DNA of 64,000 bases from Parabacteroides gordonii MS-1 = DSM 23371 (GTDB taxonomy: Bacteria > Bacteroidota > Bacteroidia > Bacteroidales > Tannerellaceae). Below the pieces are notes generated by a model. The model was not told the origin of the DNA, ran no database searches, and worked only from the letters and a program-made list of their open reading frames with translations. The stretch is from positions 1,601,075 through 1,665,074 of the forward strand of contig NZ_KQ033920.1 in NCBI RefSeq assembly GCF_000969825.1, read 5' to 3'. Position 1 is the first letter of the stretch. Each line of letters starts with the position of its first letter. The position numbers and the translations under genes were made by a program. Of this stretch, positions 1,741 to 49,129 are shown in pieces.

Positions 1741-1790
1741 GATTGTATGTTTTTATTTCTTTATTATCAGTATAATTATGTGCTTTGTTC

Positions 1791-3149
1791 TTAGTTTACA
1801 CCTTCGATTAAAGGTTTGCCTTTATAGTAATCGACGAGCTTACACTTCATCAGATACATCAGTTTCCGTTGCAGCAGGTCGGCTTTCGACAATAATAATG
1901 TATTGGCACTGGTTTGCAGGTCGATCGGGCTCATCAGGCCTTCTTCAAACTTACGGAAAGTAACCTGGTAAGCAATTTCATCGGCTTCTGCTTTCTTTTG
2001 CATCTGGATCGTTTCCTTTGCATAGCCCTCACGATCGAGAACAGCCTGTTCGATAGCTGTCTGCAACTGGCGAAGCACTTCCGTCTCCTGTTCCTGGGCG
2101 ATACGCATATTATTGCGTGCTTTGCGCAGGTTGGTCAGACGACTCAGTCCGTCGAAGAGCGGGAAGCTCAGGTTGAAAGCTATGTATTCGCCACGGTTAT
2201 TCTTAAATTGGCTACCGAAAGGAGTAACAGGTTCATAATCACTGGCTGTTTTATCGGCTTTTAAATCCTCAAAATAGTTAGTCGAAACACCGGCTGTAAA
2301 AGAAATACTCGGCAGCAGACGACCTTTATATACCAAATACTGCATCTTGGATGCTTTCAATTGCAGTTTAGCTTGCATGGCTGTCGGGTTATTTTCAGAA
2401 GCATAGTCATAAATCTCATCGATAGATTCCATCATGGAGGCATACGACTGGTCGAGCAACAAAGTATCGACATCCAGCTCCATATCGGAAGGAAAATTCA
2501 TATTCTGCTTCAAAGTAAGCACAGCGGCATCATATAAATTCTGCTGATGAGTCAGGTTATAGTCATTGGCGGCTACCTGGGCTTCGATCTGGGCTACGTC
2601 TGCTTTACCCTTCAATCCCAATTCTTCCTGCCGTTTGGTTCTATACAGGATACGACTGTTTTCTTCCAACTGTTCGGCGGCCAGCTTTACTGTCCCCCGA
2701 TAGTAGACAACATTCATAAATGCCTCCATCGTATTGATGGCCAAATCGTCCTTTTCTTTCTGGATATCGTTCATTCCCAATTGACGATTAGCCTTTGCCA
2801 TACGCCACTGATTGATTAACTGTCCCCCGTTAAAAATAGGAATAGAAACATTCAGACCATAAGAGTTATTAAAAGTCGACGTATTCTTATAAGTATTATC
2901 CTTCGGGTTGATAGAACGCCCGTAACTATACTGCGCTCCCACACTTGCACTCATAGAGGGGAAAAAGGATGCCACCGCCGAATTAAGATCCGCTTTATAA
3001 GAGTCGCTCGTATAAGCTTGTTTCTTCACTTTAGGGCTATTCTCAACGGCGTAATGCATACATTCATCCATTGTCCAGAGCTTTTCCTGGGCCATAGCAA
3101 CTGTTGCCAGGCTGAACGAAAGAACTGATGTCAATATTATCTGTTTCAT
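1791..3149 (-). CDS. TolC-family outer-membrane efflux protein
   Basis: This protein (about 452 residues) is an outer-membrane channel of the TolC/OEP family: a signal peptide (MKQIILTSVLSFSLATVAMA), then LWTMDECMHYAVENSPKVK, the usual opening helix of the family, and two long helical repeats. I start it at 3149, not at the in-frame ATG at 3170. The sigma-54 promoter at 3177-3193 predicts a transcript start near 3166, downstream of the 3170 codon, and the shorter form has a clean signal peptide. It is first in the export operon with the HlyD-like and ABC permease genes, and divergent from an NtrC-type regulator that probably controls it. Confidence 0.93.
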   Translation of the reverse strand: MKQIILTSVLSFSLATVAMAQEKLWTMDECMHYAVENSPKVKKQAYTSDSYKADLNSAVASFFPSMSASVGAQYSYGRSINPKDNTYKNTSTFNNSYGLNVSIPIFNGGQLINQWRMAKANRQLGMNDIQKEKDDLAINTMEAFMNVVYYRGTVKLAAEQLEENSRILYRTKRQEELGLKGKADVAQIEAQVAANDYNLTHQQNLYDAAVLTLKQNMNFPSDMELDVDTLLLDQSYASMMESIDEIYDYASENNPTAMQAKLQLKASKMQYLVYKGRLLPSISFTAGVSTNYFEDLKADKTASDYEPVTPFGSQFKNNRGEYIAFNLSFPLFDGLSRLTNLRKARNNMRIAQEQETEVLRQLQTAIEQAVLDREGYAKETIQMQKKAEADEIAYQVTFRKFEEGLMSPIDLQTSANTLLLSKADLLQRKLMYLMKCKLVDYYKGKPLIEGVN

Positions 3150-3176
3150 TTTTGTGTTATTTTCTGCCATAGAAAA

Positions 3177-3193
3177 GGCAAAGAGCGTGCCAA
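3177..3193 (-). promoter_or_regulatory. Sigma-54 (RpoN) promoter of the TolC-HlyD-ABC operon
   Basis: On the minus strand this reads TTGGCACGCTCTTTGCC. It matches the -24/-12 consensus (TGGCAC-N5-TTGC), with exactly 10 nt between the invariant GG and GC. The predicted start of transcription is near 3166, 17 nt before the chosen ATG. Sigma-54 promoters need an enhancer-binding ATPase, and one is encoded divergently at 3397-4749. Confidence 0.9.
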
Positions 3194-3247
3194 ACTACAT
3201 AAAACATTACTTATCAACAGATTGACAATTCGCCGGATTTTCCGAAG

Positions 3248-3335
3248 TGTAAAAAAATTAGACAGTGGTGTATAATTATTAGACAAACGGTGATAAACCG
3301 TTTCCTCCCTATTTTATCTGTCTAAATATTAGACA
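3248..3335. promoter_or_regulatory. Three 17-bp activator palindromes (TGTCTAA-N3-TTAGACA type)
   Basis: Three related sites lie at 3248-3264 (TGTAAAAAAATTAGACA), 3269-3285 (TGTATAATTATTAGACA) and 3319-3335 (TGTCTAAATATTAGACA, perfect arms). Centres lie about 90, 111 and 161 bp upstream of the predicted sigma-54 start; the first two are 21 bp apart, two helical turns. This is the expected layout of upstream activating sequences for an NtrC-type regulator. The last site also lies close to the promoter of the regulator gene itself, so it may serve autoregulation. The same motif recurs at 12037-12074. Confidence 0.82.
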
Positions 3336-3363
3336 CAGGTTAGGAAGTGTAAAACCGAACCTG

Positions 3364-3371
3364 TATCTTTG
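3364..3371 (+). promoter_or_regulatory. Bacteroidota housekeeping -7 element for the NtrC-type regulator
   Basis: TATCTTTG fits the TAnnTTTG -7 consensus of the Bacteroidota primary sigma factor and is followed by the regulator's ATG 25 bp later. No clear -33 TTTG is visible. Confidence 0.55.
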
Positions 3372-3396
3372 CACACATAAATACATTATTATTACA

Positions 3397-4749
3397 ATGG
3401 CTAAACAAGGCACCATACTGGTTGTAGACGACAACAAAGGGATTCTGACCGCAGTACAGATGCTGTTGGGAACCTGTTTTGAAAAAGTGATAACGATCTC
3501 CACACCCAACAAGATAAAGACGACATTACATAATGAAGATGTAGATGTGGTTTTGCTGGATATGAACTTCAGTGCCGGGATCAACACCGGAAATGAAGGA
3601 TTGTTCTGGCTTTCCGAAATAAAAAAGGAAGAGCCGTCCGTCCAGGTAGTTCTGTTCACCGCTTACGCCGATATCGACCTGGCAGTAAGGGGCATCAAGG
3701 AAGGAGCAACCGATTTCGTGGTGAAACCCTGGAATAACGCCAAGTTGCTGGAAACACTGAAGACCGCTTACGATATCCGGATGGCGAACCGCAAAGGTAT
3801 CCCGCACGAAAACGACAAGCAGGTCATATCCAAAGAAAGCGGTATGTTCTGGGGAGAAAGCAATGCCATGCAACAACTCCGCAACCTGATCGAGAAGGTA
3901 GCCAAGACGGATGCCAATATCCTCATCACCGGTGAGAACGGTACGGGTAAAGAGATGTTGGCTAGGGAGATCCATATACTCTCGAATCGCAAAAAAGAGG
4001 CTATGGTTCCGGTCGACATGGGAGCCATCACCGAGACCTTGTTCGAAAGCGAGCTGTTCGGCCACATGAAAGGAGCCTTTACGGATGCACGTGCCGACCG
4101 TCCCGGTAAATTCGAAGCGGCAAATAACGGTTCGCTGTTCCTGGATGAGATCGGTAACCTCTCCTATCATCTGCAAGCCAAATTATTGACGGCCCTGCAA
4201 CGCCGCAGCATCGTCCGCGTAGGCAGCAACACGCCTATCCCTATCAATATCCGCCTGATCTGTGCTACCAACCGCGATTTGCAGGAAATGGTACAGAAAG
4301 ACCAGTTCCGCGAAGACCTTTTGTACCGTATCAACACCATCCATGTGGAGATACCGTCTCTGCGCGAACGACCGGAAGATATTGTCCCGCTAACGGAGAT
4401 ATTCCTGGCCAAATACACCAACATCTACGGCAAGTCGACCATGCGGCTGAGTGCCGACGCCAAAGAGAAACTGAAACAACAACCCTGGTTCGGCAATATC
4501 CGCGAGTTGGAACATACCATCGAAAAGGCTGTGATCATCACAGATGGGGATACGCTGGAAAGTACCGACTTCGATTTTCCCCGTAAGAAAGATGCTCCGA
4601 TGAAAGAGGTTACTACACTGGAAGAAATGGAATACAACATGATCAAGAATGCCATGGATAAATACAACGGTAATCTGTCGCTTGTTGCAAGCCAGCTGGG
4701 TATTTCACGTCAGACACTGTACAATAAAATAAAACGTTACGAGATATAA
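3397..4749 (+). CDS. NtrC-family sigma-54-dependent response regulator
   Basis: This is a 450-residue enhancer-binding protein. It has a receiver domain (residues about 5-120, phosphoacceptor D55 in VVLLDMNF), a AAA+ domain with Walker A GENGTGKE, Walker B LFLDEIG, arginine-finger region FREDLLYR, and a C-terminal Fis-type helix-turn-helix (LVASQLGISRQTLYNKIKRY). The sigma-54 contact loop reads GAFTDA rather than the canonical GAFTGA. It overlaps its kinase gene by 1 nt (4749) and is divergent from the export operon. I infer that it binds the TGTCTAA-N3-TTAGACA sites between them and activates the sigma-54 promoter at 3177-3193. Confidence 0.95.
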   Translation: MAKQGTILVVDDNKGILTAVQMLLGTCFEKVITISTPNKIKTTLHNEDVDVVLLDMNFSAGINTGNEGLFWLSEIKKEEPSVQVVLFTAYADIDLAVRGIKEGATDFVVKPWNNAKLLETLKTAYDIRMANRKGIPHENDKQVISKESGMFWGESNAMQQLRNLIEKVAKTDANILITGENGTGKEMLAREIHILSNRKKEAMVPVDMGAITETLFESELFGHMKGAFTDARADRPGKFEAANNGSLFLDEIGNLSYHLQAKLLTALQRRSIVRVGSNTPIPINIRLICATNRDLQEMVQKDQFREDLLYRINTIHVEIPSLRERPEDIVPLTEIFLAKYTNIYGKSTMRLSADAKEKLKQQPWFGNIRELEHTIEKAVIITDGDTLESTDFDFPRKKDAPMKEVTTLEEMEYNMIKNAMDKYNGNLSLVASQLGISRQTLYNKIKRYEI

Positions 4750-6065
4750 TGTTAAAAGGCATTTATCATAGTCTCACCTTCCGTCTGGGCTTGTTTGGAA
4801 TACTGACAGTAGCCGGGACTTATTTGGCCATGAACCATAAATGGGAATGGTTCATCCTCCTTTCTATCGCCTGGCTCTATTCCGTACAGATGATGCGTAA
4901 TTTATTCAAGCGGAATGCCCAGAAGGTAGCATTCATGTTCGATGCGATAGACAACAGCGACTATGCCTTCCAATATGCCACCCGCGGGCGCTCGTCGAAC
5001 GACAAGCTGGTGAGCGAGTCATTGAACCGTATCACCCAGATTCTTTTCCAGGCGAAAGCGGATGCCGTACAAAAAGAAAAGTACTACGAGTTGATAATGA
5101 ACTCCGTGAATACCGGTATTATAGTCTTGGATGATATAGGAAATATCTTTCAAACCAACAACGAAGCTTTGCGTTTACTTGGTCTTTCCGTATTCACCCA
5201 CGTCAAGCAGTTGGCCCGCATAGACGAGAAACTGCAACAGACAATCACCGATATCCGTCCGGGAGACAAGCACCAGATCTCGTTTGTCAACGAACGCGGT
5301 ACCGTGAACCTGTCGATCCGCGTATCCGAAATGACCCTGCAGGACAAACACGTGCGTATCCTGGCTATCAACGATATCAACAGCGAGCTGGATGACAAGG
5401 AAATCGACTCGTGGATACGCCTTACCCGCGTACTGACACACGAAATCATGAACTCCGTCACCCCTATCACTTCCCTGAGCGACACGCTGCTTTCCCTGCA
5501 TGAAGATGCCGACAGCGAAATACGTAACGGACTGGAAGTGATCAGTACTACGGGGAAGACGTTGATATCGTTTGTCGAGTCTTACCGCAAATTCACGCAC
5601 ATCCCGACGCCCGAACCTTCGCTGTTCTATGTACAGAAATTCGCGGAAAGGATGATAAATCTGGCCCGCCATCACAACAATTACCCCAATATAACGATTA
5701 ATATAAGTATAGAACCGGCCGACCTGATCGTTTATGCCGACGAGAACCTGATCACCCAGGTCGTACTGAACCTGCTGAAGAACGGAATGCAGGCCATAGG
5801 CAGCGAACAACCGGACGGACGTATCGAACTGAAAGCTTATTGCAACCCGGATGAATCGGTAGTCATAGAGGTCAGCAACAACGGCCCCGTTATCCCACCG
5901 GAAGAGGCGGAACATATCTTTGTCCCGTTCTTCACCACCAAGGAAGGCGGAAGTGGTATCGGACTTTCCATCTCACGGCAGATCATGAGGCTTTCGGGGG
6001 GTAGTATTGCCCTGAAGAGCAATCCGGCTATCAACAAAACGTCGTTTATCCTGACATTCCCGTAA
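4749..6065 (+). CDS. NtrB-like sensor histidine kinase
   Basis: This 438-residue membrane kinase has two hydrophobic segments near the N terminus (about residues 11-45), a linker with a PAS-like part (MNSVNTGIIVLDDIGNIFQT), a HisKA dimerisation segment with the phosphorylated histidine at about residue 231 (LTHEIMNSVTPI), and a HATPase domain with N-box NLLKNGMQAI and G-box GGSGIGLSIS. Its start codon overlaps the stop of the regulator gene, so the two are co-translated and form a two-component pair. There is almost no periplasmic loop between the two membrane segments, so the signal is probably sensed in or near the membrane or in the cytoplasm. Confidence 0.93.
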   Translation: MLKGIYHSLTFRLGLFGILTVAGTYLAMNHKWEWFILLSIAWLYSVQMMRNLFKRNAQKVAFMFDAIDNSDYAFQYATRGRSSNDKLVSESLNRITQILFQAKADAVQKEKYYELIMNSVNTGIIVLDDIGNIFQTNNEALRLLGLSVFTHVKQLARIDEKLQQTITDIRPGDKHQISFVNERGTVNLSIRVSEMTLQDKHVRILAINDINSELDDKEIDSWIRLTRVLTHEIMNSVTPITSLSDTLLSLHEDADSEIRNGLEVISTTGKTLISFVESYRKFTHIPTPEPSLFYVQKFAERMINLARHHNNYPNITINISIEPADLIVYADENLITQVVLNLLKNGMQAIGSEQPDGRIELKAYCNPDESVVIEVSNNGPVIPPEEAEHIFVPFFTTKEGGSGIGLSISRQIMRLSGGSIALKSNPAINKTSFILTFP

Positions 6066-12086: not shown

Positions 12087-13481
12087 TTATCTCACATCAT
12101 ACCTTGTAAAGAAATAAAAACAAGCCATGAACAGCACGGCAATCGTAACGATCATCGCAATCAGGTAACCACTGATAAACTCGATACGCTGACTGAAAGA
12201 GGCGATCTGTTCCTGGTATTGCGGAATCTGATCGATAGCGACAGGTTTCTTACTGGTGGAAAAATCTTCTTTTGGATTATACCAATGCGGGCTATCGGCA
12301 TCTTTCGCATCCACATCTTTGAACCATTGTAAAAACTGTTCCTGAAAAGCATGCAGGTCATTCCAGTTCTTCTGGAAACGCAGATAACCGCCCCCCAGAA
12401 ATGCCTCATTCATATAATCAAACTGCGCAATCGGTGAAAGTAATGTGAAATTACGGGTCTGCTCGAACTGACGGAATTGTTGCAGGTAATAAGCATCATT
12501 ATACATCTTATCACTATTCATCAGGTTAGTCTGATTCTTCGCACGTAACTCATGCCGGGGATAAAATGCATCCATACCATTGGATGACCAACTTCCTGCC
12601 GGTGCGTTACGGTTAATATCATTAGACGCCTCCTGACGTTTCTGAGCCACTTCGTCCGATGTCGGTATGCTGAATAACTTCTTTGCCCAGAATACAGAAG
12701 TATTGGGAATGATAACTGCAGCAAACAACCAGAAACAAAGGGAAATAAGCAAGCTAATATTGGAATAGCGCGTAACCACCGACGAAAGCAAACCAAAGAC
12801 GGCAAAAGTAGTGATGAATAAGAAGCTGATCAACATAAACCCAGCAGTCTCGATCAGAAAGTTTCCGTTCAACTGCACCTGACCGGAAACAGCCAGAATA
12901 AGCAAACTGATTATTATGCCAATCAACTCCATGAGTCCTACCACTGTAACGATACTCAACAGCTTGCTGCACAGGAAAGTCCGGCGAGGTACGGCATTTG
13001 AAAAGACCAAAGCCAACGTCCTCTCCTCTTTCTCCCCCGAAATGGCATCAAATGCAAAAAGCAAAGTAATAAAGCTCAGGAACATGGAAACAATAAACGC
13101 CCAACTCAAGCTATCCGTACGGACCAGGAGAGGATTATTACTATCGTGACGTACCGAATAATCAAACACATTATAAGCGCTGTAAGTGATACGATTAGGC
13201 AAATAGCTTTCCTTGCAATCGGCTATTACACTGTTTTCTCGCGGAGAGATGATAAAACTATTCCTTGCTGTCGCCACTCTTGAGATATTTTCAGAGAGTT
13301 TGCCCAACGTCTCCTGCTGTGCTACGCTATACTTGGCATAGTTATCATGCATATCCTTAAAAGAAGAAGCAAATGAGATACTACCCAACGTAAACACCAA
13401 CACAACAATCACAAAAGAGACCTGAAAGCGCAGACTATACAGATAGTTCTGCAATTCACGTATATATAAAGTTGTAAACAT
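12087..13481 (-). CDS. ABC-2 type permease with large periplasmic insert (second permease)
   Basis: This 464-residue inner-membrane protein has one N-terminal hydrophobic segment (about 20-40), a long hydrophilic loop, five further segments, including one after FAFDAISGEKEERTLALVFS (the coupling motif of ABC-2 permeases), a second long hydrophilic stretch and a final C-terminal helix ending ACFYFFTRYDVR. The shape is that of the DUF3526-containing permeases. It ends with almost the same residues as its neighbour (MKYDVR), pointing to a duplicated pair that forms a heterodimer. It is last in the five-gene export operon, 15 bp after the first permease. Confidence 0.88.
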   Translation of the reverse strand: MFTTLYIRELQNYLYSLRFQVSFVIVVLVFTLGSISFASSFKDMHDNYAKYSVAQQETLGKLSENISRVATARNSFIISPRENSVIADCKESYLPNRITYSAYNVFDYSVRHDSNNPLLVRTDSLSWAFIVSMFLSFITLLFAFDAISGEKEERTLALVFSNAVPRRTFLCSKLLSIVTVVGLMELIGIIISLLILAVSGQVQLNGNFLIETAGFMLISFLFITTFAVFGLLSSVVTRYSNISLLISLCFWLFAAVIIPNTSVFWAKKLFSIPTSDEVAQKRQEASNDINRNAPAGSWSSNGMDAFYPRHELRAKNQTNLMNSDKMYNDAYYLQQFRQFEQTRNFTLLSPIAQFDYMNEAFLGGGYLRFQKNWNDLHAFQEQFLQWFKDVDAKDADSPHWYNPKEDFSTSKKPVAIDQIPQYQEQIASFSQRIEFISGYLIAMIVTIAVLFMACFYFFTRYDVR

Positions 13482-13496
13482 AACTGTATTTATTTA

Positions 13497-15032
13497 TTAT
13501 CTGACATCATATTTCATAAACGACGCAACTGTTCCGATCAACAACACGATCGCCAACCCAAGCAAAGCACATAAGCGTCCCAGCGCATCACCTAAAGTAG
13601 CCGAAAGTGTTACCGGTTGAGGGATATAACGGGGAACACCGCTCGTATCCAGATACGGAAATTCAGAATTACTTCTACCATATTTCTTCCATGTTGCTTC
13701 ATCTCCCAGATCTACTTCCGCCTGTGTTGGAAATTCGTCCAAGGGCTGACCGGTAAAATAAGCAGTAGACTCAAACAGCTTTTGATCCTTAAAATAGGTA
13801 ATAACATTCTCCCTATATTTACGCAGACTTTCCATATATTTAAGGAAACTGCTCACATCGGTACGGCACAGAGCATCCGTCGTCTGGTCGAACAATTCGG
13901 AAGGTGACAACCAGGCGATAGCCTGTTGTAACCGTTGCTGACGTACCAGTCCGTCCAGATAATTCCGTTGCAAGGCCCATTTCTTATCCGCATTATTCAA
14001 CATGACAGGTGTTGCCCAAATCTGCATCTGCTGATGGAACAAAGGGGTTTCACGAGGCCCACCGGCAAGCTCCAGATATTCCGGTCCATCGCCAGTACAG
14101 TTATTATAACTCAAATATTTCATATTAATCCTTTGGGATGCACGCGGCCATTCTTCCATATATTCTTTATGATAAGTATCGTCATAGTTTTTCATAATTG
14201 CCTGTACGTTATCATACAAAGGAGCTTTTGAAATGCCCTGTGCCAGGTAAGTCGCAATATTAGGCATCAGGAAAAGGAACCATATCCAGCATAGCAAGCT
14301 GATAATAATGGAAGAAGACGAATGTGTCACCCGGCTGGAAATGAACATTCCCAACAAAAGAAATACCATCATATAAATAATCGATGTCAGCAGGAGCAGT
14401 ATTAACCCGCCCCAATCGGATACGGAAAATGAAATTTCAGGATTAACCACTATAATGAGGCAAGCCAGCAGATAACAAAACAACAAGATAGGTAACAACG
14501 TAAGTATCAATCCTAATAATTTCCCCATTAGGAAGGATACGCGGCTTACCTGTCCTGTAAAAGTCAACTTCATCGTCCCGTCTTCCCGCTCCCGGGTGAT
14601 GGCATCATACGAAAAGACGAGTGCCAGCAACGAGATCAGAATAGCGATCACTTTAGAGAAGTCGATCGAGAAAAAGGCATTCAGAGACGGGTTATCGCGG
14701 GTGAGTGTATGTCCTTCGGGAAACAACGGATATTCCCAGAAAGCAACCTTCACCTTATTGCCGACATTATTGATAATACCTGTACTGAATATACTCAGCG
14801 GCTCCGGCTCCTGCACAACAGTAGGACGTACGTGTGACCATACCCGGCTCTCTTTCATTTCTCTATCCGCCTGTGCCTGCTCTATCTTATAGACACGCAC
14901 CTGGTTCTGATAATTATCCACACTGACGATCACCGTAAACGGTATCACCAGCAGACACAGCACAAACCCTATAATAAACCTGACCGACAACAAGTTCAGC
15001 AGGAAATCTTTCTTTGCTATTAACCAAATCAT
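13497..15032 (-). CDS. ABC-2 type permease with large periplasmic insert (first permease)
   Basis: This 511-residue paralogue of the next gene has an N-terminal hydrophobic segment (about 17-36), a hydrophilic domain, membrane segments with FSYDAITREREDGTMKLTFT (coupling region), a long extracytoplasmic domain (about 275-475) and a terminal helix. It belongs to the ABC-2/DUF3526-like group. It lies 30 bp after the ATPase gene and 15 bp before the second permease, so the two probably form a heterodimeric transmembrane unit. The large periplasmic domain may contact the adaptor-like protein encoded at 15828-17267; that is inference. Confidence 0.88.
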   Translation of the reverse strand: MIWLIAKKDFLLNLLSVRFIIGFVLCLLVIPFTVIVSVDNYQNQVRVYKIEQAQADREMKESRVWSHVRPTVVQEPEPLSIFSTGIINNVGNKVKVAFWEYPLFPEGHTLTRDNPSLNAFFSIDFSKVIAILISLLALVFSYDAITREREDGTMKLTFTGQVSRVSFLMGKLLGLILTLLPILLFCYLLACLIIVVNPEISFSVSDWGGLILLLLTSIIYMMVFLLLGMFISSRVTHSSSSIIISLLCWIWFLFLMPNIATYLAQGISKAPLYDNVQAIMKNYDDTYHKEYMEEWPRASQRINMKYLSYNNCTGDGPEYLELAGGPRETPLFHQQMQIWATPVMLNNADKKWALQRNYLDGLVRQQRLQQAIAWLSPSELFDQTTDALCRTDVSSFLKYMESLRKYRENVITYFKDQKLFESTAYFTGQPLDEFPTQAEVDLGDEATWKKYGRSNSEFPYLDTSGVPRYIPQPVTLSATLGDALGRLCALLGLAIVLLIGTVASFMKYDVR

Positions 15033-15062: not shown

Positions 15063-15782
15063 TTATTCTATGACAGCTTCCTGCATATAATCCAGATAGA
15101 TACGTTCCAGGTCGTCCTGAAGGAATTCTTCACGGCTGCGAAGCATCACCAGACGGCCTTCCTTCATGATACCGACGCGATCGGCTACCGCTTTGGCACG
15201 GAAGAGGTCGTGGGTACACATCAGGATACTCTTTCCGGCGTTACGCAGGTTGATCAGTATCTGCATCAATTCAGCTGCACTCTTAGGGTCGAGGCCGGTG
15301 GTCGGTTCGTCCATCACGATATTGTCGGCATCCTTGATGATGGCGATTGCCAGACCTACTTTCTGTCGCATACCTTTGGAGAAGGTCTTCAGTTTACGTT
15401 CGAAGGCTTCTTCCTGAAGGCCGACACGGCGCATGACGTTATAATAGTCCGTCTTTGTCAGGTTCGGCTTCCCTCCCAGACGGGCGAAGAAGTCGAGGTT
15501 CTGACGGGCGGTGAAGTTGCCGTACAACATCACATTCTCGGAAACGAAAGCAACGTGGTTCTTTGTTTCCAACGGGTTTTCCATTACGTCGATGCCGTCT
15601 ATCAGGGCATGGCCGGAAGTAGGTTCGATAAAATTTAGGAAGATATTGATAGAAGTGGTCTTCCCCGCCCCGTTGGCACCCAGTAAAAAGAATATTTCAC
15701 CCGGTTTGATTTCCAGGTTCAGTGAATCAAGGGCCAGGTTGCCGTCTTCATATCTCTTTGTCAAATCGATTGCTTGTAGCAT
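15063..15782 (-). CDS. ABC transporter ATP-binding protein
   Basis: This 239-residue cytoplasmic ATPase is of the CcmA/NatA type that serves ABC-2 permeases. It has Walker A LLGANGAGKTTS, a signature helix FSKGMRQKVGLA (in place of LSGGQ), Walker B with NIVMDEPTTGLDP, and the H-loop (CTHDLF). It lies between the adaptor-like gene and the two permease genes, with short gaps, and powers export through them. Confidence 0.95.
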   Translation of the reverse strand: MLQAIDLTKRYEDGNLALDSLNLEIKPGEIFFLLGANGAGKTTSINIFLNFIEPTSGHALIDGIDVMENPLETKNHVAFVSENVMLYGNFTARQNLDFFARLGGKPNLTKTDYYNVMRRVGLQEEAFERKLKTFSKGMRQKVGLAIAIIKDADNIVMDEPTTGLDPKSAAELMQILINLRNAGKSILMCTHDLFRAKAVADRVGIMKEGRLVMLRSREEFLQDDLERIYLDYMQEAVIE

Positions 15783-15827: not shown

Positions 15828-17267
15828 TTACCGTTTGCTAAGCTTCATGCCGAACCAAACGATTCCCCCGACAAAGCCGATGAGCAACAAGATCAGGAAG
15901 ATGGTTCCGATGATGGAAGTGGAAGCATTTACCTGGATACGGACAGTCTTGTCTTCGGTATCCACCTTGCGGTTATCGGCCATAGCTTCGGTCTTGATCT
16001 TTACTTCCTGGGCACCTACTCCACCGTCCGACGGCGGGATGATGGTTACCTTCACGGTCAGTTCCTTTTCCGGTTCGAGACTGCTGATCACATCCGGTTC
16101 GATACGGGTATCCCATCCCAGAGGCTTCTCTGTTGTCAGCTTGATGTTATCCAGGCGGCGGGTTCCTCCGTTGCGGACGGTCACGTCCATAGCCACTTCT
16201 TTTCCGACAGTCGTTTCATGATAGAGGTTGTTTGCACGCACTTCGATCTTTCCTTTTCCACGGGGGATGATCTCCAGGTTTTCGCTTCCGGCCTTTTCAC
16301 CGTTGGCGGCGGAGACTGTCTGTACCTGGAATTTTATCGGTTTGTCGATCACTACCTGCTGATCGTCGCGATCCGGCAGATAGACTTGCAAAGATAACTT
16401 CTTTATGTTTACCCCCTGTGCAAATTTGATCTGAGTCACTTTACTTTCGCCATCGGTAAAGTCATAGCTTATCTGGCGCGGCAGATCGAGGATCTCCAGG
16501 CGGTAGACATCATCCGAGGTAGAGAAACGTTCGAGGGTCAGGTCGTAGGTCGCCTTGCTGCTCAGGTCAGTTTCCTGGCTGAACTGCATAGACGAGATAT
16601 CGATCACGTTCACACTGGCATCCTTCTTCAGATAGATATTCTTTTCATCTTTCCGGTTGTTGTAATTCAGCGCCACCGTCAGGTTCTCGGCATCCTTCAG
16701 CAGTTCAAAGTCGGCAGTCGCCACCTTTCCCAACTTGATAAACGGGACACGGAACTCGTAGGGAGAACCGATAATCGTTTTCGACTCGTTATCTACTAAC
16801 GATACATATATATTATATATTTTACCGGAACGCATTTCGGGAGTGAATACGTCGAAGTGTTCCTGAAACTGGTTCAGGTACTCCTCATTTCCTTCGAGGG
16901 CACTCTTCAACGTGATCTTCACCTTTCGCTCGCCCCGCTGATCCTGATACTTCACGGCACGTTCTACGGTGATGTAACTCTGTTGCGAGATCAGTTTAAG
17001 GATCAGCTTCTGATAGTCTACCTCCTTACTCAGCAGCTCATTCTTCGAGCGGTTGAAGTCGTTGGCAGAGATGGCTTTTTCATTGTACAACTTCGTGTCG
17101 TTCTGATACTTCTGTTTGGCCACTTCATAATCGGCACGCGTCTTCTTCAGGTCGAGCAACAGGGCTGCTTCGCTATTCTCCTGTGCCCGGACGCCGAACG
17201 ACAGCATCAGGAAAGCCAGCAATACTGGCAGTGTTTGAATCATTTGTTTAATCATTGTCGTATTCAT
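15828..17267 (-). CDS. Anchored periplasmic protein with HlyD-like hairpin tip and NEW3-like domains
   Basis: This 479-residue protein has a signal peptide (cleaved near GVRA-Q), an alpha-helical hairpin segment (about 35-98), several beta-sandwich segments, one like a NEW3 domain (about 350-445, VAMDVTVRNGGTRRLDNIKL), and a C-terminal membrane helix (about 452-473). The hairpin tip KLYNEKAISANDF closely resembles the tip of the HlyD-like protein at 490-1740 (KLYEESLIAKEDY) and the TolC-contacting tip of classical adaptors. Standing between a TolC-like gene and an ABC ATPase, it takes the place of a membrane fusion protein. That role is inference; the lipoyl halves of true adaptors are absent. 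A start at the second Met (17255) is also possible. Confidence 0.8.
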   Translation of the reverse strand: MNTTMIKQMIQTLPVLLAFLMLSFGVRAQENSEAALLLDLKKTRADYEVAKQKYQNDTKLYNEKAISANDFNRSKNELLSKEVDYQKLILKLISQQSYITVERAVKYQDQRGERKVKITLKSALEGNEEYLNQFQEHFDVFTPEMRSGKIYNIYVSLVDNESKTIIGSPYEFRVPFIKLGKVATADFELLKDAENLTVALNYNNRKDEKNIYLKKDASVNVIDISSMQFSQETDLSSKATYDLTLERFSTSDDVYRLEILDLPRQISYDFTDGESKVTQIKFAQGVNIKKLSLQVYLPDRDDQQVVIDKPIKFQVQTVSAANGEKAGSENLEIIPRGKGKIEVRANNLYHETTVGKEVAMDVTVRNGGTRRLDNIKLTTEKPLGWDTRIEPDVISSLEPEKELTVKVTIIPPSDGGVGAQEVKIKTEAMADNRKVDTEDKTVRIQVNASTSIIGTIFLILLLIGFVGGIVWFGMKLSKR

Positions 17268-17491: not shown

Positions 17492-19024
17492 CTACTTTCC
17501 GGCTAGTTCCTTATCTTCTGGCATGAAACTGCGGTTATGTTCGAAGTCATACATCGTCTTCCGGTTCAGGTCGGCTACTGACAACCGGTAGGTGATATAA
17601 CTGTCTATATAAGCCAGTTGCACCTGCGAAAGACGCTCCTGCTCGATAGAAAGTTCCTGGCTCGTCATGTCTCCGTTCTCGAAACGCATCTGGCTGATAC
17701 GGTAACTCTGTACGGCTACTTCCTGGTTACGGCGGTTGATGCGGTAACGCTTCTCGGCTTCATACACGCTGCGTACTATTTCGCGGATTTCCTGTTCGAT
17801 GGTTCTTTTGGTGTTGTCGAGGTTCAGTTCGCGTTGTTTCAGGCGGACTTGTTCGCGGCGTACCTGGTTCTTGGCACGTCCCCAGTCCATCAGCGGGTAA
17901 GAGACGGTCAGGGCGATACCACGGTTGGAAGGGCGGTCGCGCATATTATCGAACGACGAACCGACCAACTGGCCTACCGATCCTTCTCCCCGCGTACTCA
18001 ATCCCGTAAAGTCGTAATAGGCGGAGATATTTCCTTTGAACTCCCGTTCGCGTTTGGCGCGTTTCACTTCGATGGCTTGCAGTTCGATGTCCAGGTTGTC
18101 TTCCTGTATCTCCATACGGTTGCGCAACGCCTCATCGATGGCCTGTTGCATGTCGACGATAAAAGCTTCAAACTCCATATCCGCTTTCAGGTCGATTTCC
18201 TCTTTCAGATCAAGACCAATCAGCAGTTTGAACTGGTCTTTGGCTGTCGACAGTTTGCCTTCGCTTTCCATCACGCGGGCTTCATCCTGTGCCACGGTGA
18301 TCTCGGCGATCAGCATTTCCCCTTCGGGAAGGTTGCCTGTTTCCTGTTTCAGCTTGGTGATGCGGTAGGCTTCGCGGGAGTTGGCCAGGCGGTCTTGGTT
18401 GATCTTATGCTCGTAAGCCAGTTTGTACACGTTGTAGAAACCTTCGGTTACATTATATACAATATTCATCTGTACACGGGTGAAATAGCAGGTGCTCTTC
18501 CGGAAGTCGAGTTCGGCCACCTTCATATTCTCTTTCAGCTTATTGGCGGTGAAGATCGGCTGGTTGAAGGACAGGGCGAAACGGCTGTACACCTGGTCGC
18601 GTTCCAGTTCTTCGTAATCCTTTTGTGAAAGCGTGGTACGGTAATTCTCCCAATACATTTTAGAAGACAGGGCAAAGTTACCGCCGGTGGGCAATACATA
18701 CGTGAAGTTCAGGTTTCCTCCCACCTGCAGGGAACCGGTAGAGTTATACACCGGCAGACCGTCGGCCTGCGACACCTCCGTCAGTTCTTCCGTCCACGAG
18801 GGAGTAAAGAGGCTGAAGTCGAGCATCGGCTTGAACTGCGCTTTCGTGTAGAGGTAAGAGTAGCGGGTGGCGTCCATGTCCTCCTTGTAGTATTTCACCG
18901 TATAGCTTTCGCCCAGGGCAATACGGATGGCCTCATCATAGGTGATCGTCCGGAGGTTTTCCGTCTCCGCATGTCCCGCCAGGGCGAACCCTATTAATAA
19001 AGATGCTAACAAATTTCTTTTCAT
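17492..19024 (-). CDS. TolC-family outer-membrane efflux protein
   Basis: This 510-residue outer-membrane channel starts with a signal peptide (MKRNLLASLLIGFALAGHA), then TITYDEAIRIALGESYTVK, the first helix of the OEP family, and two helical repeats (for example TLVEQEIREIVRSV-like coiled segments late in the protein). It is first in the export operon that continues through the adaptor-like protein, ATPase and two permeases. Transcription is from the sigma-54 promoter at 19101-19117, giving a leader of about 65 nt that contains one TGGGTAA-type palindrome. It is only distantly like the TolC protein at 1791-3149. Confidence 0.92.
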   Translation of the reverse strand: MKRNLLASLLIGFALAGHAETENLRTITYDEAIRIALGESYTVKYYKEDMDATRYSYLYTKAQFKPMLDFSLFTPSWTEELTEVSQADGLPVYNSTGSLQVGGNLNFTYVLPTGGNFALSSKMYWENYRTTLSQKDYEELERDQVYSRFALSFNQPIFTANKLKENMKVAELDFRKSTCYFTRVQMNIVYNVTEGFYNVYKLAYEHKINQDRLANSREAYRITKLKQETGNLPEGEMLIAEITVAQDEARVMESEGKLSTAKDQFKLLIGLDLKEEIDLKADMEFEAFIVDMQQAIDEALRNRMEIQEDNLDIELQAIEVKRAKREREFKGNISAYYDFTGLSTRGEGSVGQLVGSSFDNMRDRPSNRGIALTVSYPLMDWGRAKNQVRREQVRLKQRELNLDNTKRTIEQEIREIVRSVYEAEKRYRINRRNQEVAVQSYRISQMRFENGDMTSQELSIEQERLSQVQLAYIDSYITYRLSVADLNRKTMYDFEHNRSFMPEDKELAGK

Positions 19025-19046: not shown

Positions 19047-19218
19047 CGGGTAACACATTACCCAATTATCGTTATTTGTTCCTTTATACGCCTATAGTAA
19101 GGCAAACGGCGTGCCAAAACAGCAATCGGTTGATTATACATCGCTTACGGAAACGGGTAACTTTTTACTCATGGGTAAGCGGGAAGAGCCTTACCCAAAT
19201 TGGGTAATTCTTTACCCA
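19047..19218. promoter_or_regulatory. TGGGTAA-N4-TTACCCA activator palindromes flanking a sigma-54 promoter
   Basis: Three 18-bp sites are seen: 19047-19064 (CGGGTAACACATTACCCA), 19154-19171 (CGGGTAACTTTTTACTCA) and 19201-19218 (TGGGTAATTCTTTACCCA, perfect). Extra half-sites lie at 19172-19178 and 19191-19197. The upstream sites are about 73 and 120 bp before the predicted sigma-54 start near 19089; the first is inside the leader. The motif differs from the TGTCTAA type, so a different regulator is expected. The nearby NtrC-type protein at 22917-24287 is the best candidate. Confidence 0.78.
19101..19117 (-). promoter_or_regulatory. Sigma-54 promoter of the TolC/NEW3/ABC operon
   Basis: The minus strand reads TTGGCACGCCGTTTGCC, a perfect -24/-12 match with 10 nt between GG and GC. 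The predicted start is near 19089, about 65 nt before the TolC-like ATG. Confidence 0.9.
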
Positions 19219-19322: not shown

Positions 19323-21623
19323 ATGAATATAAAACAAGTAGCCCGTTATACCTTTTTATCCCTGACACTATTCACTACGTTGGTTTCTGCCGGGACGAAA
19401 GAGCCTGTCGATTATGTGGATATGTTTATCGGCACCTCCAATTCCCGATGGATGCTGGGGCCTTATGCCCAGGAACCGTTCGGTATGGTGCAACTCGGCC
19501 CGGACAACCAGGGAAACGTTTGGATGGGCGGATACGAATATGCCATCAACAGCGTCTCCGGCTTCAGTCACCTGCATGCCTGGACGATGGGCGGACTGAT
19601 GATCATGCCGACAACGGCCGACCTCGCCCTGTCGAACCCTTCGGTGGATTCCCCTTACAAGGGTGCGAATGCCGGTTACCATTCCCGTATCCTGAAAGAG
19701 ACGGAAAAAGCCTCACCGGGATATTATTCCGTCTATCTGTACGACCATGAAGTGAAAGCGGAACTTTCCGCCACCACCCGTTGCGGCATCCATCGTTACA
19801 CCTTCCCCGAAAGAAAGGAATCGAGAATACTGATTGACCTCCTCTTCCCTACCGAATGGGATTACGGGTTCAGCGTAAAAGATGCATGCATCACCAAAGT
19901 AAGTAATACGGAACTGGAAGGGTATGCCGACTGTCAATCAGGCCCGTGGAGCAGTTGGAACAAATACAAACTGCATTTCATCGTCCGCTTCAGCAAACCG
20001 TTCTCCCAACTGAACGGCTGGAATGAAGGGGAAGAAAAAGAGAATATACAAGCGATAGCCGGAAAGAACGACATCGGAGTCTATGCCCTTTACAACACAG
20101 AAGAAGGGGAAAGTATAACCGTCTCCACAGGCTTATCGCTGGTCAGTATCGAGCAAGCCCGTTTGAATATGGAGACAGAACTGGCACCTTTGCAATACGA
20201 CTTCGACCGCGTAGCGTCACAAACCCGCAATAAATGGAACGAACTGCTCGGCAAAATCGAGATTGAAGGAGAGAACGAAGTGGATAAAACCAAGTTCTAC
20301 ACCAACCTCTACCGTGCCTATGCCGGCAAGCAAACCTGGAACGACGTGAACGGACAATACTGCGATGCCTGCGAAAACGTGCAACAACTGGATCACGGCA
20401 ATATGTACGGCGGCGATGCTTTCTGGAACAGTTTCTGGAACCTCAACGGACTCTGGTCTATCCTCTCGCCCCGCATTGTAGACGATTGGGTGACCACCCA
20501 ACTGGAAATGTTCAAACATACCGGATGGACAAGCAAAGGGCCGGCCGGACTGGAGTATTCCGGCATCATGGAAGGTTCGCACGAAACCGCCCTCCTGGTG
20601 GCCGCTTACCAGAAAGGCATACGCAAAGACGGGGAAGAGATCTACAAAGCGGTAGTAAAGAATGTAACGGAACCCGGCATCAACCATCCTTGTGGCGGCA
20701 ATTGCGGCAATCCTCTACTCGACGTTTACATCAAGCAGGGTTATATGCCGATGGAAAAGGGTGTCGTTTCCAAAACACTCGATTATGCCTACGACGACTG
20801 GTGCGTCTCGCAACTGGCCTTTGCCCTCGGCAAGAAGAAGGAAGGGAAAGCCCTGTTGGCACGTTCCATGAACTACAAGAATGTATTCCATCCGGAGAAG
20901 AAGTTCGTTATGCGCCGCGACAGCCTGGGTAACTGGGATGCGGACTTCGATGTCTTTTCCAACAAAGGGTTCATCGAAGGGAACAGCTGGCAATATTCCT
21001 GGTATGTGCCGCATGATGTGCCGGGGTTAGTCGGTTTTCTGGGTAAAGACCTGTTCAACAGCCGCCTGGAAGAGGGCTTTATCAAGTCGGAAAAGCATAA
21101 GTTTGCCGCACATGTATTCGACCGTACGACGGGGCAGTCTGCCGAATTCTATATCAACCAGGGGAACGAAGTGAATCTGTGTACACCGTTCCTGTTCAAT
21201 TATTCCGGCAAACCGTGGCTGGCGCAGAAATGGTCGCGTGCCATCCTGGACAGTTTCTACGGCTCCACACCCTATCACGGCTGGGAAGGGGATGAAGACG
21301 AAGGACAGATGGGCGGCTGGTATGTGATGAGTGCCCTGGGCTTCTTCGAAATGAACGGCGGCGCTTCCCTTCAACCGGAACTGGAACTGACCAGCCCGCT
21401 GTTCAACAAAGTCACCATCCATTTAGACCCGGATTATTATAAGGGAAAGACCTTTACGATCGAAGCCCGCAACAACTCGAAAGAAAACATCTATATCCAA
21501 AAAGCGTATCTGAACGGCAAAGAATTAAAACATCCCCGGATACCTTTTGCCGCCATTGCCGCCGGTGGAGAACTGGTACTCGAGATGGGCGATCAGCCGG
21601 CGTACGGGTGTTTTAAAGATTAA
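19323..21623 (+). CDS. Glycoside hydrolase family 92, exo-alpha-mannosidase
   Basis: This 766-residue secreted or periplasmic enzyme has a signal peptide (about residues 1-23) and the conserved GH92 blocks: VDYVDMFIGTSNSRWMLGP at the start, NMYGGDAFWNSFWNLNGLW in the middle, and GDEDEGQMGGWYVMSALGFF near residue 660, which carries the acidic catalytic residues in this family. GH92 enzymes are Ca2+-dependent exo-mannosidases that trim host N-glycans or fungal mannan; linkage cannot be told. It stands alone, not in a SusCD locus, between the export operon and a two-component pair. Confidence 0.93.
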   Translation: MNIKQVARYTFLSLTLFTTLVSAGTKEPVDYVDMFIGTSNSRWMLGPYAQEPFGMVQLGPDNQGNVWMGGYEYAINSVSGFSHLHAWTMGGLMIMPTTADLALSNPSVDSPYKGANAGYHSRILKETEKASPGYYSVYLYDHEVKAELSATTRCGIHRYTFPERKESRILIDLLFPTEWDYGFSVKDACITKVSNTELEGYADCQSGPWSSWNKYKLHFIVRFSKPFSQLNGWNEGEEKENIQAIAGKNDIGVYALYNTEEGESITVSTGLSLVSIEQARLNMETELAPLQYDFDRVASQTRNKWNELLGKIEIEGENEVDKTKFYTNLYRAYAGKQTWNDVNGQYCDACENVQQLDHGNMYGGDAFWNSFWNLNGLWSILSPRIVDDWVTTQLEMFKHTGWTSKGPAGLEYSGIMEGSHETALLVAAYQKGIRKDGEEIYKAVVKNVTEPGINHPCGGNCGNPLLDVYIKQGYMPMEKGVVSKTLDYAYDDWCVSQLAFALGKKKEGKALLARSMNYKNVFHPEKKFVMRRDSLGNWDADFDVFSNKGFIEGNSWQYSWYVPHDVPGLVGFLGKDLFNSRLEEGFIKSEKHKFAAHVFDRTTGQSAEFYINQGNEVNLCTPFLFNYSGKPWLAQKWSRAILDSFYGSTPYHGWEGDEDEGQMGGWYVMSALGFFEMNGGASLQPELELTSPLFNKVTIHLDPDYYKGKTFTIEARNNSKENIYIQKAYLNGKELKHPRIPFAAIAAGGELVLEMGDQPAYGCFKD

Positions 21624-21675: not shown

Positions 21676-22920
21676 ATGCCACTATTTAAGAAGAACGAAC
21701 AAGCCGCACAGCCGAACCTGGAGCTACTGCTTTCGGAGTTTAACCGGTCGCTGGCACTGATCGTCGACAAACAGTTACTTATCGGCAATATCGTTGCCAA
21801 AGTAAAACAGATATGCCCCGTGGAAAGTATTTATATCTTCCTGCGGGATGAGAATACAGGCAAGTACAGGCAGCAGAACGAGGCAAAGAACAAACCTGTG
21901 ACGCTGACCGGCCGGAGCCGGTTGGTCAACTGGCTGTCGGTAAACGAAAAACATCTGATCGTATCCGAGCATCCGGACATTATCGATTATTTCCCGGAAG
22001 AAGAGCAGGAAGCCATACGGCAGCTGGGCTCCGAACTGATCTTTCCCCTTAAAGTGATGAACCAGACAAACGGCACCATCTTCATAGGAAAGAAAAATGA
22101 CGGCACCCGCTTTACCGAACAGGAACTGAACCTGCTCTCCATCCTGATCAACCAGGCGAACTTTGCGATCGAACATGCTTCGCTATACGAGATACAAACG
22201 GAACGCCTGAAGAAGATGTACCGCACCGACCGTCTGGCTACGCTCGGCGAACTGGCTGCCGGAGCCGCCCACGAAATACGGAACCCGCTGACGGCTATCC
22301 GCAGCACGATCCAGTATCTGAGCAAAGACTTCAGTAGCGATCCGGCAAAAAGCGAAATGATGACGGAGCTGATCTCCGAAGTGGAACGTATCAACAAAAT
22401 CGTACAAGGCCTGCTGTCGTTTGCCCGTCCGTCAGCCCTCGATGCTTCGGAGGTAAACATCGAGCAACTGATCAACCAGACGCTTCTGCTGGTGACGAAT
22501 ACCTTACGCAAACAGAATATAGAAGTAGAATTCGAATACTTCACCGACAACACGACCATACAGGCCGATGCGGAACAGCTGAAACAGGTTTTTCTCAACA
22601 TCATCCTCAACGCTGTCGAGGCAATGAACCGGAATACTCCCGACCGCTCGCGTACATTAATAATAAGTATAGAGAAAGGGGCTCCCATCAACCCTCATTC
22701 CCGTTACCTGATCATTTCGTTCGAAGACACCGGAAGGGGCATCGAACAGAAAGACATCGAGAATGTATTCAACCCTTTCTTCACGACAAAAGAGGAAGGA
22801 ACCGGACTCGGCCTTGCCATCTGTTACGGTATCATCAACCGGCATGAGGGCGAGATAGAAGTAAAAAGCACGCCCGGCAAAGGCACTTGTATGAATGTAA
22901 AACTACCGCAACGTATATGA
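21676..22920 (+). CDS. GAF-domain sensor histidine kinase (NtrB-like)
   Basis: This cytoplasmic kinase of 414 residues has a GAF domain (about 20-180), a HisKA segment with the phosphorylated histidine at about residue 199 (GAAHEIRNPLTAIR), and a HATPase domain (NIILNAVEAMN, then GTGLGLAICYGI). It has no membrane segment, so it senses an internal or relayed signal. The start at 21676 (MPLFKKNEQ) fits the promoter; the longer frame runs back into the GH92 gene. It overlaps the regulator gene by 4 nt (ATGA), forming a two-component pair. Confidence 0.93.
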   Translation: MPLFKKNEQAAQPNLELLLSEFNRSLALIVDKQLLIGNIVAKVKQICPVESIYIFLRDENTGKYRQQNEAKNKPVTLTGRSRLVNWLSVNEKHLIVSEHPDIIDYFPEEEQEAIRQLGSELIFPLKVMNQTNGTIFIGKKNDGTRFTEQELNLLSILINQANFAIEHASLYEIQTERLKKMYRTDRLATLGELAAGAAHEIRNPLTAIRSTIQYLSKDFSSDPAKSEMMTELISEVERINKIVQGLLSFARPSALDASEVNIEQLINQTLLLVTNTLRKQNIEVEFEYFTDNTTIQADAEQLKQVFLNIILNAVEAMNRNTPDRSRTLIISIEKGAPINPHSRYLIISFEDTGRGIEQKDIENVFNPFFTTKEEGTGLGLAICYGIINRHEGEIEVKSTPGKGTCMNVKLPQRI

Positions 22921-24287
22921 AAGCAAAAATAGTAGTGGCCGACGACGAACCGCGCATCTGTAAAATGATCTGCCGCCTGCTCACGGACGAAGGATATGAT
23001 GTGATGCCTGTCGAAAACGGACGGGAAGCAGTGGAAGCGCTCCTCTCCTTCCAGCCCGACGTTATCTTACTGGATCAGCAGATGCCCGTCATGACCGGAG
23101 TGGAAGCATTGGAAGAGATCAAACAAATAGCCCCCAACCAGGTCGTCCTTTTTGTAACGGCTTTCGGCTCTATCTCGCTGGCGGTCGACGCTGTAAAGAA
23201 AGGGGCTTACGACTTTATAGAGAAGCCTTTCGACAACGATAAACTACTACTCACCGTAGGTCGTGCCGTCGAACATAGCCGGATGAAAGGAGAAATATCG
23301 AACCTGAAAAAGAGCCTGGGCGAAAAGAAAAGTGCCGTCATCGGAGACAACACCGGCCTGAAGCAGGTAATGACACAGGTGCGCCGGGTGGCGGAAACCA
23401 ATGCGACAGTGCTGATACACGGCGAAAGCGGAACCGGAAAGGAATTGATTGCCCGTGCCGTACACGACAACAGCCTTCGCAGCCAGGGCCCGTTTGTGGC
23501 TATCAACTGCGGGGCAATCCCTCTTACCTTGATGGAAAGCGAGCTGTTCGGACACGAACGCGGCGCCTTTACCGACGCCAAAGAAGCCAAAGCCGGCACT
23601 TTCGAACGGGCGGACGGTGGCACGCTGTTCCTCGATGAAGTAGGCGAACTGCCTTTGGATGCACAGGTCAAACTGCTTCGCGTATTGGAAGAACGGAGAA
23701 TTACCCGCATCGGTGGAAAGAAAGCCATTCCGGTAGACGTCCGCATCGTAACGGCTACCAACCGCAACCTGGACGATGAGGTAAAGAACGGGCATTTCCG
23801 GCTCGATCTGCTCTATCGCCTGAATGTGTTTACCCTGATCCTTCCGCCCCTGCGCGAGAGGAAAGAAGATATTCCCCTGCTGACCAATTTCTTTATCCGC
23901 AAATATAACCGGACGCTGAGCCTCGACGTACAATCCGTCAGCCCCGAAGCAATAAGCCTGCTTACGTCTTACGACTGGCCCGGCAACGTGCGCGACCTGG
24001 AGAATGCGATACAGAGTTCAATGATACTTTGTACAGGTGGCGTGATCCGTCCCGAACATCTGCCCGACCGGATAAAAGGATATGAGTTAGCCGAAGCACA
24101 GACCGTAAGCGGAAACAGCGGAAACAGTATCCGGGAGATCAATGCACAGATGGAGAAAGAGCTTATTATTGAAGCCCTGAAAAAGCATAACTTCAATCGT
24201 ACCCTGACAGCAGAGGCTCTCAATATCAGCCGGAAGACATTGTTTAACAAAATGAAGCGTTATGGGCTGTCGTCGGATGAAAATTGA
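22917..24287 (+). CDS. NtrC-family sigma-54-dependent response regulator
   Basis: This protein of 456 residues has a receiver domain with phosphoacceptor D53 (VILLDQQMP), AAA+ domain with Walker A GESGTGKE and Walker B LFLDEVG, and a Fis-type C-terminal helix-turn-helix (TAEALNISRKTLFNKMKRYG). The sigma-54 loop reads GAFTDA, as in the other regulator here. Start at 22917 gives MKAKIVVADDEP, and overlaps the kinase stop. I infer control of the TGGGTAA-type sites and the export operon at 12087-19024, because it is the closest enhancer-binding protein and the GH92 gene is all that lies between. Confidence 0.94.
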   Translation: MKAKIVVADDEPRICKMICRLLTDEGYDVMPVENGREAVEALLSFQPDVILLDQQMPVMTGVEALEEIKQIAPNQVVLFVTAFGSISLAVDAVKKGAYDFIEKPFDNDKLLLTVGRAVEHSRMKGEISNLKKSLGEKKSAVIGDNTGLKQVMTQVRRVAETNATVLIHGESGTGKELIARAVHDNSLRSQGPFVAINCGAIPLTLMESELFGHERGAFTDAKEAKAGTFERADGGTLFLDEVGELPLDAQVKLLRVLEERRITRIGGKKAIPVDVRIVTATNRNLDDEVKNGHFRLDLLYRLNVFTLILPPLRERKEDIPLLTNFFIRKYNRTLSLDVQSVSPEAISLLTSYDWPGNVRDLENAIQSSMILCTGGVIRPEHLPDRIKGYELAEAQTVSGNSGNSIREINAQMEKELIIEALKKHNFNRTLTAEALNISRKTLFNKMKRYGLSSDEN

Positions 24288-37540: not shown

Positions 37541-37564
37541 TATAATATATTATACTTGATGTTA

Positions 37565-41602: not shown

Positions 41603-41630
41603 TATATATATATGTTACTGGTTTATACTT

Positions 41631-49052: not shown

Positions 49053-49129
49053 AATATCCATATCGTTAAAAGCCAAGACCCGCACCGGAAGAACACGATC
49101 AAACAGCCTCTCCTCAACCGGTCTTTTAT

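Follow-up and report, generated by a model that had tools for sequence, protein, structure and literature searches.

A probable ABC-2 export operon of Parabacteroides gordonii with a putative TolC-docking adaptor composed of a PAP-type hairpin and an Ig-like/NEW3 body

Results

A five-gene operon for a TolC-family protein, an adaptor-like protein and an ABC-2 transporter

The window, a stretch of 64,000 nucleotides of the Parabacteroides gordonii genome (contig C2, 1601075-1665074, in the 6.79-Mb genome), contains an operon of five genes on the minus strand, transcribed in the order of outer membrane protein, adaptor, ABC ATPase, permease 1 and permease 2. The first gene (17492-19024) encodes a TolC-family outer membrane protein (OEP) with two stretches of PF02321 (E 1.5e-36), in which both loops that we presume, from TolC anatomy, to be the periplasmic tips carry a glycine in 41/41 aligned OEPs. 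The second gene, a single ORF at 15828-17267, encodes the adaptor-like protein of 479 aa, of which full-length homologues occur in genomes of the phylum, order and family; the boundaries given in the first-pass annotation are right, while the strand is corrected here to minus. In the ABC ATPase (15063-15782; PF00005, E 9e-27), pattern matching located the Walker A, Walker B and H-loop motifs, and the signature SKGMRQK was read by eye; its top subfamily model is DrrA, with a score under the cut-off, followed by GldA. The two ABC-2 permeases are encoded at 13497-15032 (PF12679, E 9.6e-29) and 12087-13481 (PF12679, E 6.7e-29). These Pfam matches bear out the first-pass annotation in placing TolC-family, ATPase and ABC-2 permease genes beside the adaptor gene. 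They also amend its description of two DUF3526-like permeases, as both proteins belong to PF12679 but only the one at 13497-15032 carries DUF3526 (PF12040, E 2e-10).

Elsewhere in the window, a second OEP and a classical HlyD-type adaptor, both on the minus strand, stand back to back with genes for another response regulator of the sigma-54 type and for a sensor protein with PAS and HATPase domains (490-6065), and three consecutive, very long minus-strand ORFs of 1387, 1345 and 2484 aa occupy 33377-49085.

Domain architecture of the adaptor-like protein

The N-terminal segment of the adaptor (residues 1-28; 17184-17267, minus strand as for all parts of this gene) resembles a cleavable signal peptide by eye, with a presumed cleavage between VRA and QE. 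AlphaFold2 modelling of the adaptor with 38 sequences (mean pLDDT 84.5, pTM 0.52) gave an alpha-helical hairpin of the type seen in periplasmic adaptor proteins (PAPs) at the start of the mature protein (residues 33-96; 16980-17171), with helices at 33-62 and 68-96 and a turn at 63-67, so that the hairpin expected from the first-pass annotation is indeed modelled when the protein is predicted alone. Three beta domains, extending to about residue 450, are predicted between the hairpin and a C-terminal helix. Domain 1 (residues 97-219; 16611-16979) is a beta-sandwich with generic Ig-like and beta-sandwich structure matches at Z about 8, and domain 2 (residues 220-338; 16254-16610) is Ig-like according to the AlphaFold2 model and structure search. 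Domain 3 (residues 339-450; 15918-16253) is an Ig-like domain of the NEW3 family, as evidenced by a PF10633 match to residues 353-425 (E 6e-13; 49.2 bits against a cut-off of 24.4) and by a structural match to the Micromonospora sialidase 2ber (Z 12.7, rmsd 1.9, 99 residues). PF10633 was detected at E<=1 in 38/38 family members scanned. The relative arrangement of these domains is not fixed by the model, given the pTM of 0.52.

The chain ends in a hydrophobic helix (residues 452-478; 15834-15914), which is taken for a transmembrane anchor. A hydrophobic stretch lies at the C-terminus in 80 of 82 sequences and in the mid-region in one, in agreement with the C-terminal anchor proposed at first. 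The NEW3-like body proposed together with it holds as far as a beta-sandwich/Ig-like body is concerned, but NEW3 domains in the plural do not, as Pfam gives one PF10633 domain only.

Pfam gave the window protein no lipoyl or HlyD match at E<=1, and neither family is among those listed (25 of 43) for the 38 members. Structure searches of the adaptor list Ig-like and beta-sandwich folds, which does not exclude a fold that is not listed; similarly, a lipoyl or barrel fold is not among the structure matches listed for domain 1, which proves nothing about its absence. According to a 2026 review (PMC13328181), the usual PAP plan comprises four domains, and its frame is made up of lipoyl, barrel and membrane-proximal domains. 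In PAPs the hairpin interrupts the lipoyl domain, and body segments both precede and follow it in the chain. PAPs are anchored to the inner membrane at the N-terminus, by a transmembrane helix, a lipid or a signal that stays uncleaved, and they assemble as hexamers on the pump. In the window protein, helix 1 is preceded by only about four residues after the presumed signal peptide, and the open frame extends only 11 codons further upstream. The body part that precedes the hairpin in PAPs therefore has no place in the chain, and by its full architecture the adaptor is not a PAP, though it may well work like one.

Likeness of the hairpin to PAP hairpins

A profile restricted to the hairpin (A2; 26 rows, residues 31-99) was searched against the P. 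gordonii genome, giving 21 places with E<=10, including the query itself. Nineteen of the other 20 fall in HlyD/PAP genes (two of them in the same gene) that were located independently of the profile with the HlyD_D23 family, PF16576, whose matched span makes up 0.28% of the genome; the remaining place is a TolC-family ORF, as judged by eye. In a control set of 30 loci with PAP genes, the forward profile matched 15/30 at E<0.01, while the reversed profile matched 0/30 (its hits were two ORFs outside this set), and 20 heptad-phase column shuffles likewise gave 0/30 each. The likeness of the hairpin to PAPs thus exceeds chance.

Searches of PDB sequences with the hairpin profile pointed the same way, as PAPs account for 14 of the 21 distinct sequences found at E<=1, including the best nine, and several of these are E. 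coli AcrA or MacA in variant form; CLF1 and AMA1 sequences make up the remaining seven. A profile of the full-length adaptor gave nine matches at E<=10, of which seven are PAPs, matched on the hairpin in every case. NCBIfam adaptor models match the hairpin below their cut-offs only (CzcB-type, E 8e-4; HlyD-type, E 0.007). The first-pass annotation had noted a resemblance to the HlyD-like protein of the window (490-1740), which is present but weak (E 0.05 and 0.58). Weak matches to OEP in 5/38 members and to SHOCT in 6/38 indicate that other helix pairs look similar.

A structure search with the whole adaptor model was swamped by Ig-like chains (integrins, complement and ciliary proteins) and was uninformative on the hairpin, and the hairpin and domain 1 were therefore folded (mean pLDDT 84.5, pTM 0.63) and searched separately. 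The separate hairpin model aligned with MexA (6iok_J) at Z 10.7 and an rmsd of 0.8 A over 63 residues without a gap, and gapless alignments span both helices of MexA and of AcrA. The best 12 of 50 structure matches listed are PAP hairpins, largely from MexA and AcrA entries. In Foldseek, for which rows with an rmsd >10 A were excluded as evidence, a beta-glucosidase took rank 1 and PAPs ranks 2 to 4. Given this result and the caution of the structure tool that Z values under about 13 are common among long helices, the structural match supports kinship with PAPs without proving it.

The motif RxxxLxxxxxxS is the TolC-binding motif of PAPs, with T in place of S in HlyD, and HlyD mutants of the motif lost TolC binding (PMC3391258). 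The motif is not absolute among PAPs, as CvaA has no recognisable one (PMC4446572). In the HMMER alignment, R, L and S of AcrA correspond to N56, L60 and S67 of the window protein, whose tip motif reads N-x3-L-x6-S (residues 56-67; 17067-17102, minus strand). The tip sequence highlighted in the first-pass annotation, KLYNEKAISANDF, covers residues 59-71, and its assignment as a conserved hairpin tip is upheld by profile, structure and motif register alike. The adaptor thus has the alpha-helical hairpin with a TolC-binding tip motif that is characteristic of PAPs, albeit with asparagine in place of the arginine.

Clades of homologues and their gene neighbourhoods

Full-length homologues are patchily distributed, occurring in 23/296 genomes sampled from the phylum, 5/198 from the order and 15/123 from the family, with the genome of P. 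gordonii counted each time; the closest named homologues come from Parabacteroides (94% and 92%). A contig scan gave 147 relatives, of which 80 were kept, representing 78 distinct loci. Their records are titled Bacteroidota, Balneola, Ignavibacteria, KSB1, Zixibacteria, Krumholzibacteria, Aminicenantes, Acidobacteria and others, where many are metagenome-assembled genomes and the titles may mislead. In a FastTree tree of 79 sequences with a midpoint root, from which the fragments L083, L095 and L105 were left out, 43 sequences including the window protein form clade A (support 0.925), and 34 fall on the other side of the root (31 of clade B and three others). Two sequences fall beside clade A, L113 with a linked OEP gene and L104 without.

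In clade A, an OEP gene lies no more than 0.8 kb upstream of the adaptor gene in 40/40 readable loci, so that ABC pump, adaptor and TolC-family duct are encoded together. No OEP gene was found beside the adaptor in any of the 31 readable loci of clade B and the three others. The profile used for this search was grown from the OEP of the window, and a very distant OEP in clade B could escape it; it did recover two unlike OEPs, that at 1791-3170 of the window (E 8e-12) and one in L188 (E 1e-28). Downstream sequence of at least 5 kb was available for 28 clade-A loci, counting that of the window. ATPase and permease genes follow the adaptor in 26/28, no downstream ATPase gene being seen on the strand of the adaptor in the other two (L086 and L096), and extra permease genes lie between adaptor and ATPase in 9/28. 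The constant five-gene order anticipated in the first-pass annotation is strictly kept in 17/28 of these loci, but the other 11 deviate.

The neighbourhoods of clade B are different from those of clade A on the upstream side. An ATPase and two permeases follow the adaptor in all 25 loci whose downstream sequence reaches 4.5 kb or more, whereas directly upstream stands a gene for a PDZ protein in 25/28 readable loci and an OEP in none. The PDZ protein, as in L112 (7094-7894), L125 (7179-7970) and L130 (7143-7985), contains one or two Pfam PDZ stretches and, by eye, a signal peptide, and might pair with the hairpin in the periplasm. A divergent histidine kinase gene lies upstream in 22/24 loci. 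OEP-family matches were found somewhere in all 12 genomes searched (11 of clade B, one of clade A), so that a duct encoded elsewhere could serve clade B. In three further genomes (L140-L142), permease genes are located upstream of the adaptor gene, and no OEP was found within 18-19 kb. Homologues without TolC or ABC genes had been named beforehand as evidence against an export system; the 31 readable loci in which no TolC-family gene was found beside the adaptor count partly against it on the side of TolC, but the ABC genes do not.

The tip motif was compared across 82 sequences including the window protein; L095 has none of its three letters, and L105 is without the first one. Among the 36 sequences outside clade A in which all three can be read, the motif opens with R in 34/36 and is exactly RLS or RLT in 27/36 (22 and 5, respectively). 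In the 44 clade-A sequences, the first position is N in 43 and K in one, L is kept in all 44 and S in 42. The TolC-binding motif is therefore best preserved away from the window, and the clade of the window has lost the arginine; that this is the very clade with linked TolC genes speaks against a docking role. Coevolution of the R-to-N change with a private OEP was considered and dropped, since the change follows one branch of the tree. Being a single event on a FastTree tree with a midpoint root, the coincidence of the two is a correlation; moreover, R in the motif goes together with a linked OEP in L113, whose record is titled Aminicenantes.

Promoter elements and a nearby two-component system

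A sigma-54-like promoter, TGGCACGCCGTTTGCC, matching 10/11 consensus positions, is located 92 nt before the OEP start codon (19101-19116, minus strand). Sites scoring at least 9 were found in 10/39 clade-A promoter regions, compared to 2% of random 430-bp stretches. Two exact copies of the palindrome GGGTAA-N4-TTACCC, at 19048-19063 and, further upstream, at 19202-19217, are the sole exact copies in the 6.8-Mb genome. The exact palindrome is present in 20/39 clade-A promoters; the promoters with either element include several close relatives. These modest shares speak against the regulatory reading given below. In nine other genomes, 11/14 copies of the palindrome sit at the operon promoter, as compared by hand from the coordinates, where only the scarcity of the palindrome elsewhere is informative because the genomes were chosen for a palindrome-bearing operon promoter. 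A reversed-pattern control gave one match, in one of the nine genomes.

On the plus strand, the window encodes a GAF-containing histidine kinase (21676-22920; PF00512, PF02518 and GAF), in which no hydrophobic stretch was found, and a sigma-54 response regulator of the NtrC type (22887-24287; PF00158, E 1.5e-71), which may act on the GGGTAA-N4-TTACCC sites. A GH92 glycosidase gene (19323-21623) stands between the operon and these likely regulators in the window. The survey of regulators covered 27 clade-A loci picked for length, plus the window, and 23 clade-B loci. BLAST clusters place a kinase in 24/28 clade-A and 20/23 clade-B loci and a regulator in 23/28 and 19/23, respectively, figures in which unrelated kinases may be mixed because the clusters were made by single linkage. 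One study (PMC12316311) names FtsX-type ABC permeases in Bacteroidia, and the word TolC does not occur in its text.

A hairpin-less NEW3 operon in the same genome

Another operon on contig C2, at about 307.8-310.7 kb (L143 8797-11671), encodes a NEW3 protein, an ABC ATPase and a PF12679 permease. This NEW3 protein has three PF10633 stretches, and no hairpin was seen in it. By eye, no OEP is among the ORFs of the surrounding 19-kb stretch, three of which were domain-scanned. Residues 318-475 of the window adaptor match the protein (E 4e-5), and similar partial matches of the C-terminal part occur in other genomes of the phylum sample (E down to 5.5e-10). The two operons are alike in this NEW3 match and in the ATPase and PF12679 permease genes downstream, and the C2 operon differs in having no hairpin, no OEP and one permease gene only. 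A NEW3-ABC system of this hairpin-less kind is likely to have gained a hairpin together with domain 1, this direction being our reading of the comparison, and acquisition of a private TolC gene in clade A would form part of the simplest history.

Discussion

Gene linkage, domain searches and structural modelling together suggest that the operon probably encodes an ABC-2-type tripartite exporter, whose non-canonical adaptor would dock on TolC. Its inner membrane pump would consist of the ATPase and both permeases, and in it ATP hydrolysis would drive the permease pair to move or extract the substrate, by analogy with MacAB-TolC and YbhFSR. The adaptor, presumably as an oligomer, would link the pump to the TolC-family duct, with the hairpin tip likely docking on it. 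The nearby NtrC-type two-component system may turn the operon on from the sigma-54 promoter via the GGGTAA-N4-TTACCC sites. No neighbouring gene indicates the substrate, and our guess, by analogy, would be a small amphipathic or envelope-damaging compound. The distinct tripartite export system put forward in the first-pass annotation gains from the hairpin, the body and the gene linkage, but linkage to TolC is constant in clade A only.

This last point leaves room for another role, in which the NEW3 protein would be an accessory or substrate-handling subunit of the ABC-2 transporter, its hairpin would serve for oligomerisation or bind another periplasmic partner such as the clade-B PDZ protein, and the TolC linkage of clade A would be a later and separate addition. 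The PDZ gene, directly upstream in 25/28 readable clade-B loci where no OEP is found, fits such a role, as does the hairpin-less NEW3 protein of the same genome, whose gene likewise stands ahead of ATPase and permease genes and, by eye, has no OEP gene in its surroundings. We nevertheless consider it rather unlikely, since the R-L-S/T register is best kept in exactly clade B, the hairpin can be superposed gaplessly on MexA and AcrA along both helices, and OEP-family matches were present in every one of the 12 genomes searched. With kinase clusters near 24/28 clade-A and 20/23 clade-B loci, a further view is that sensing or detoxification is the main task of the complex, which would signal transport to the two-component system next to it in the manner of BceAB-type modules. 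Three clade-B kinases with two hydrophobic stretches each would suit this role, but the window kinase has none and consists of GAF, HisKA and HATPase domains only, and transcriptional control alone accounts for the adjacency, making a reporting function very unlikely.

It is less probable still that the hairpin arose by convergence, or from a helix pair of an OEP, and merely resembles those of PAPs. The weak OEP (5/38) and SHOCT (6/38) matches among members and the one OEP, judged by eye, among the 20 genome places speak for this view. Against it, PAPs prevail in open searches (19/20 genome places; 14/21 PDB sequences including the best nine), the TolC-binding motif is in register, and reversed and shuffled profiles recovered 0/30 PAP loci. 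The tripartite exporter with a docking hairpin is thus the reading that we prefer.

An ABC pump, a TolC-family duct and a hairpin adaptor are common to this system and to MacA-MacB-TolC and YbhG-YbhFSR-TolC. YbhFSR comprises one ATPase and two membrane components, with the adaptor gene in the operon and TolC as the likely duct (PMC7190983). Unlike MacA and YbhG, the window adaptor has an Ig-like/NEW3 body, a hairpin at the mature N-terminus and a hydrophobic anchor at the C-terminus, and the permeases that go with it, compared to those of MacAB and YbhFSR, are PF12679/DUF3526 proteins. BesA of Borrelia also departs from the standard PAP domain set (PMC4446572) but represents the reverse case, as it lacks the hairpin (PMC4446572), which the window adaptor keeps on another body. 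No such hairpin-on-NEW3 protein is described in the sections consulted of the 2026 review of PAPs (PMC13328181), and nothing on a hairpin-NEW3 adaptor system was found in searches of the open-access PMC literature, which does not establish its absence from print.

On balance, we lean slightly towards a second architectural class of TolC-docking adaptor, spread over several phyla by record title, in which an ABC-2 exporter gained a PAP hairpin on its NEW3 subunit and would build its conduit without a lipoyl ring, one clade having a private TolC gene and N for the R of the motif. The occurrence of N for R alongside a private TolC gene poses a question of specificity, to be treated with caution as it looks like a single event on the tree. 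A family that shares only the hairpin with PAPs would separate TolC docking from pump coupling and would offer a natural domain swap for testing whether the tip alone opens the duct. If this holds true, nature has built the connectors of TolC pumps in more than one way.
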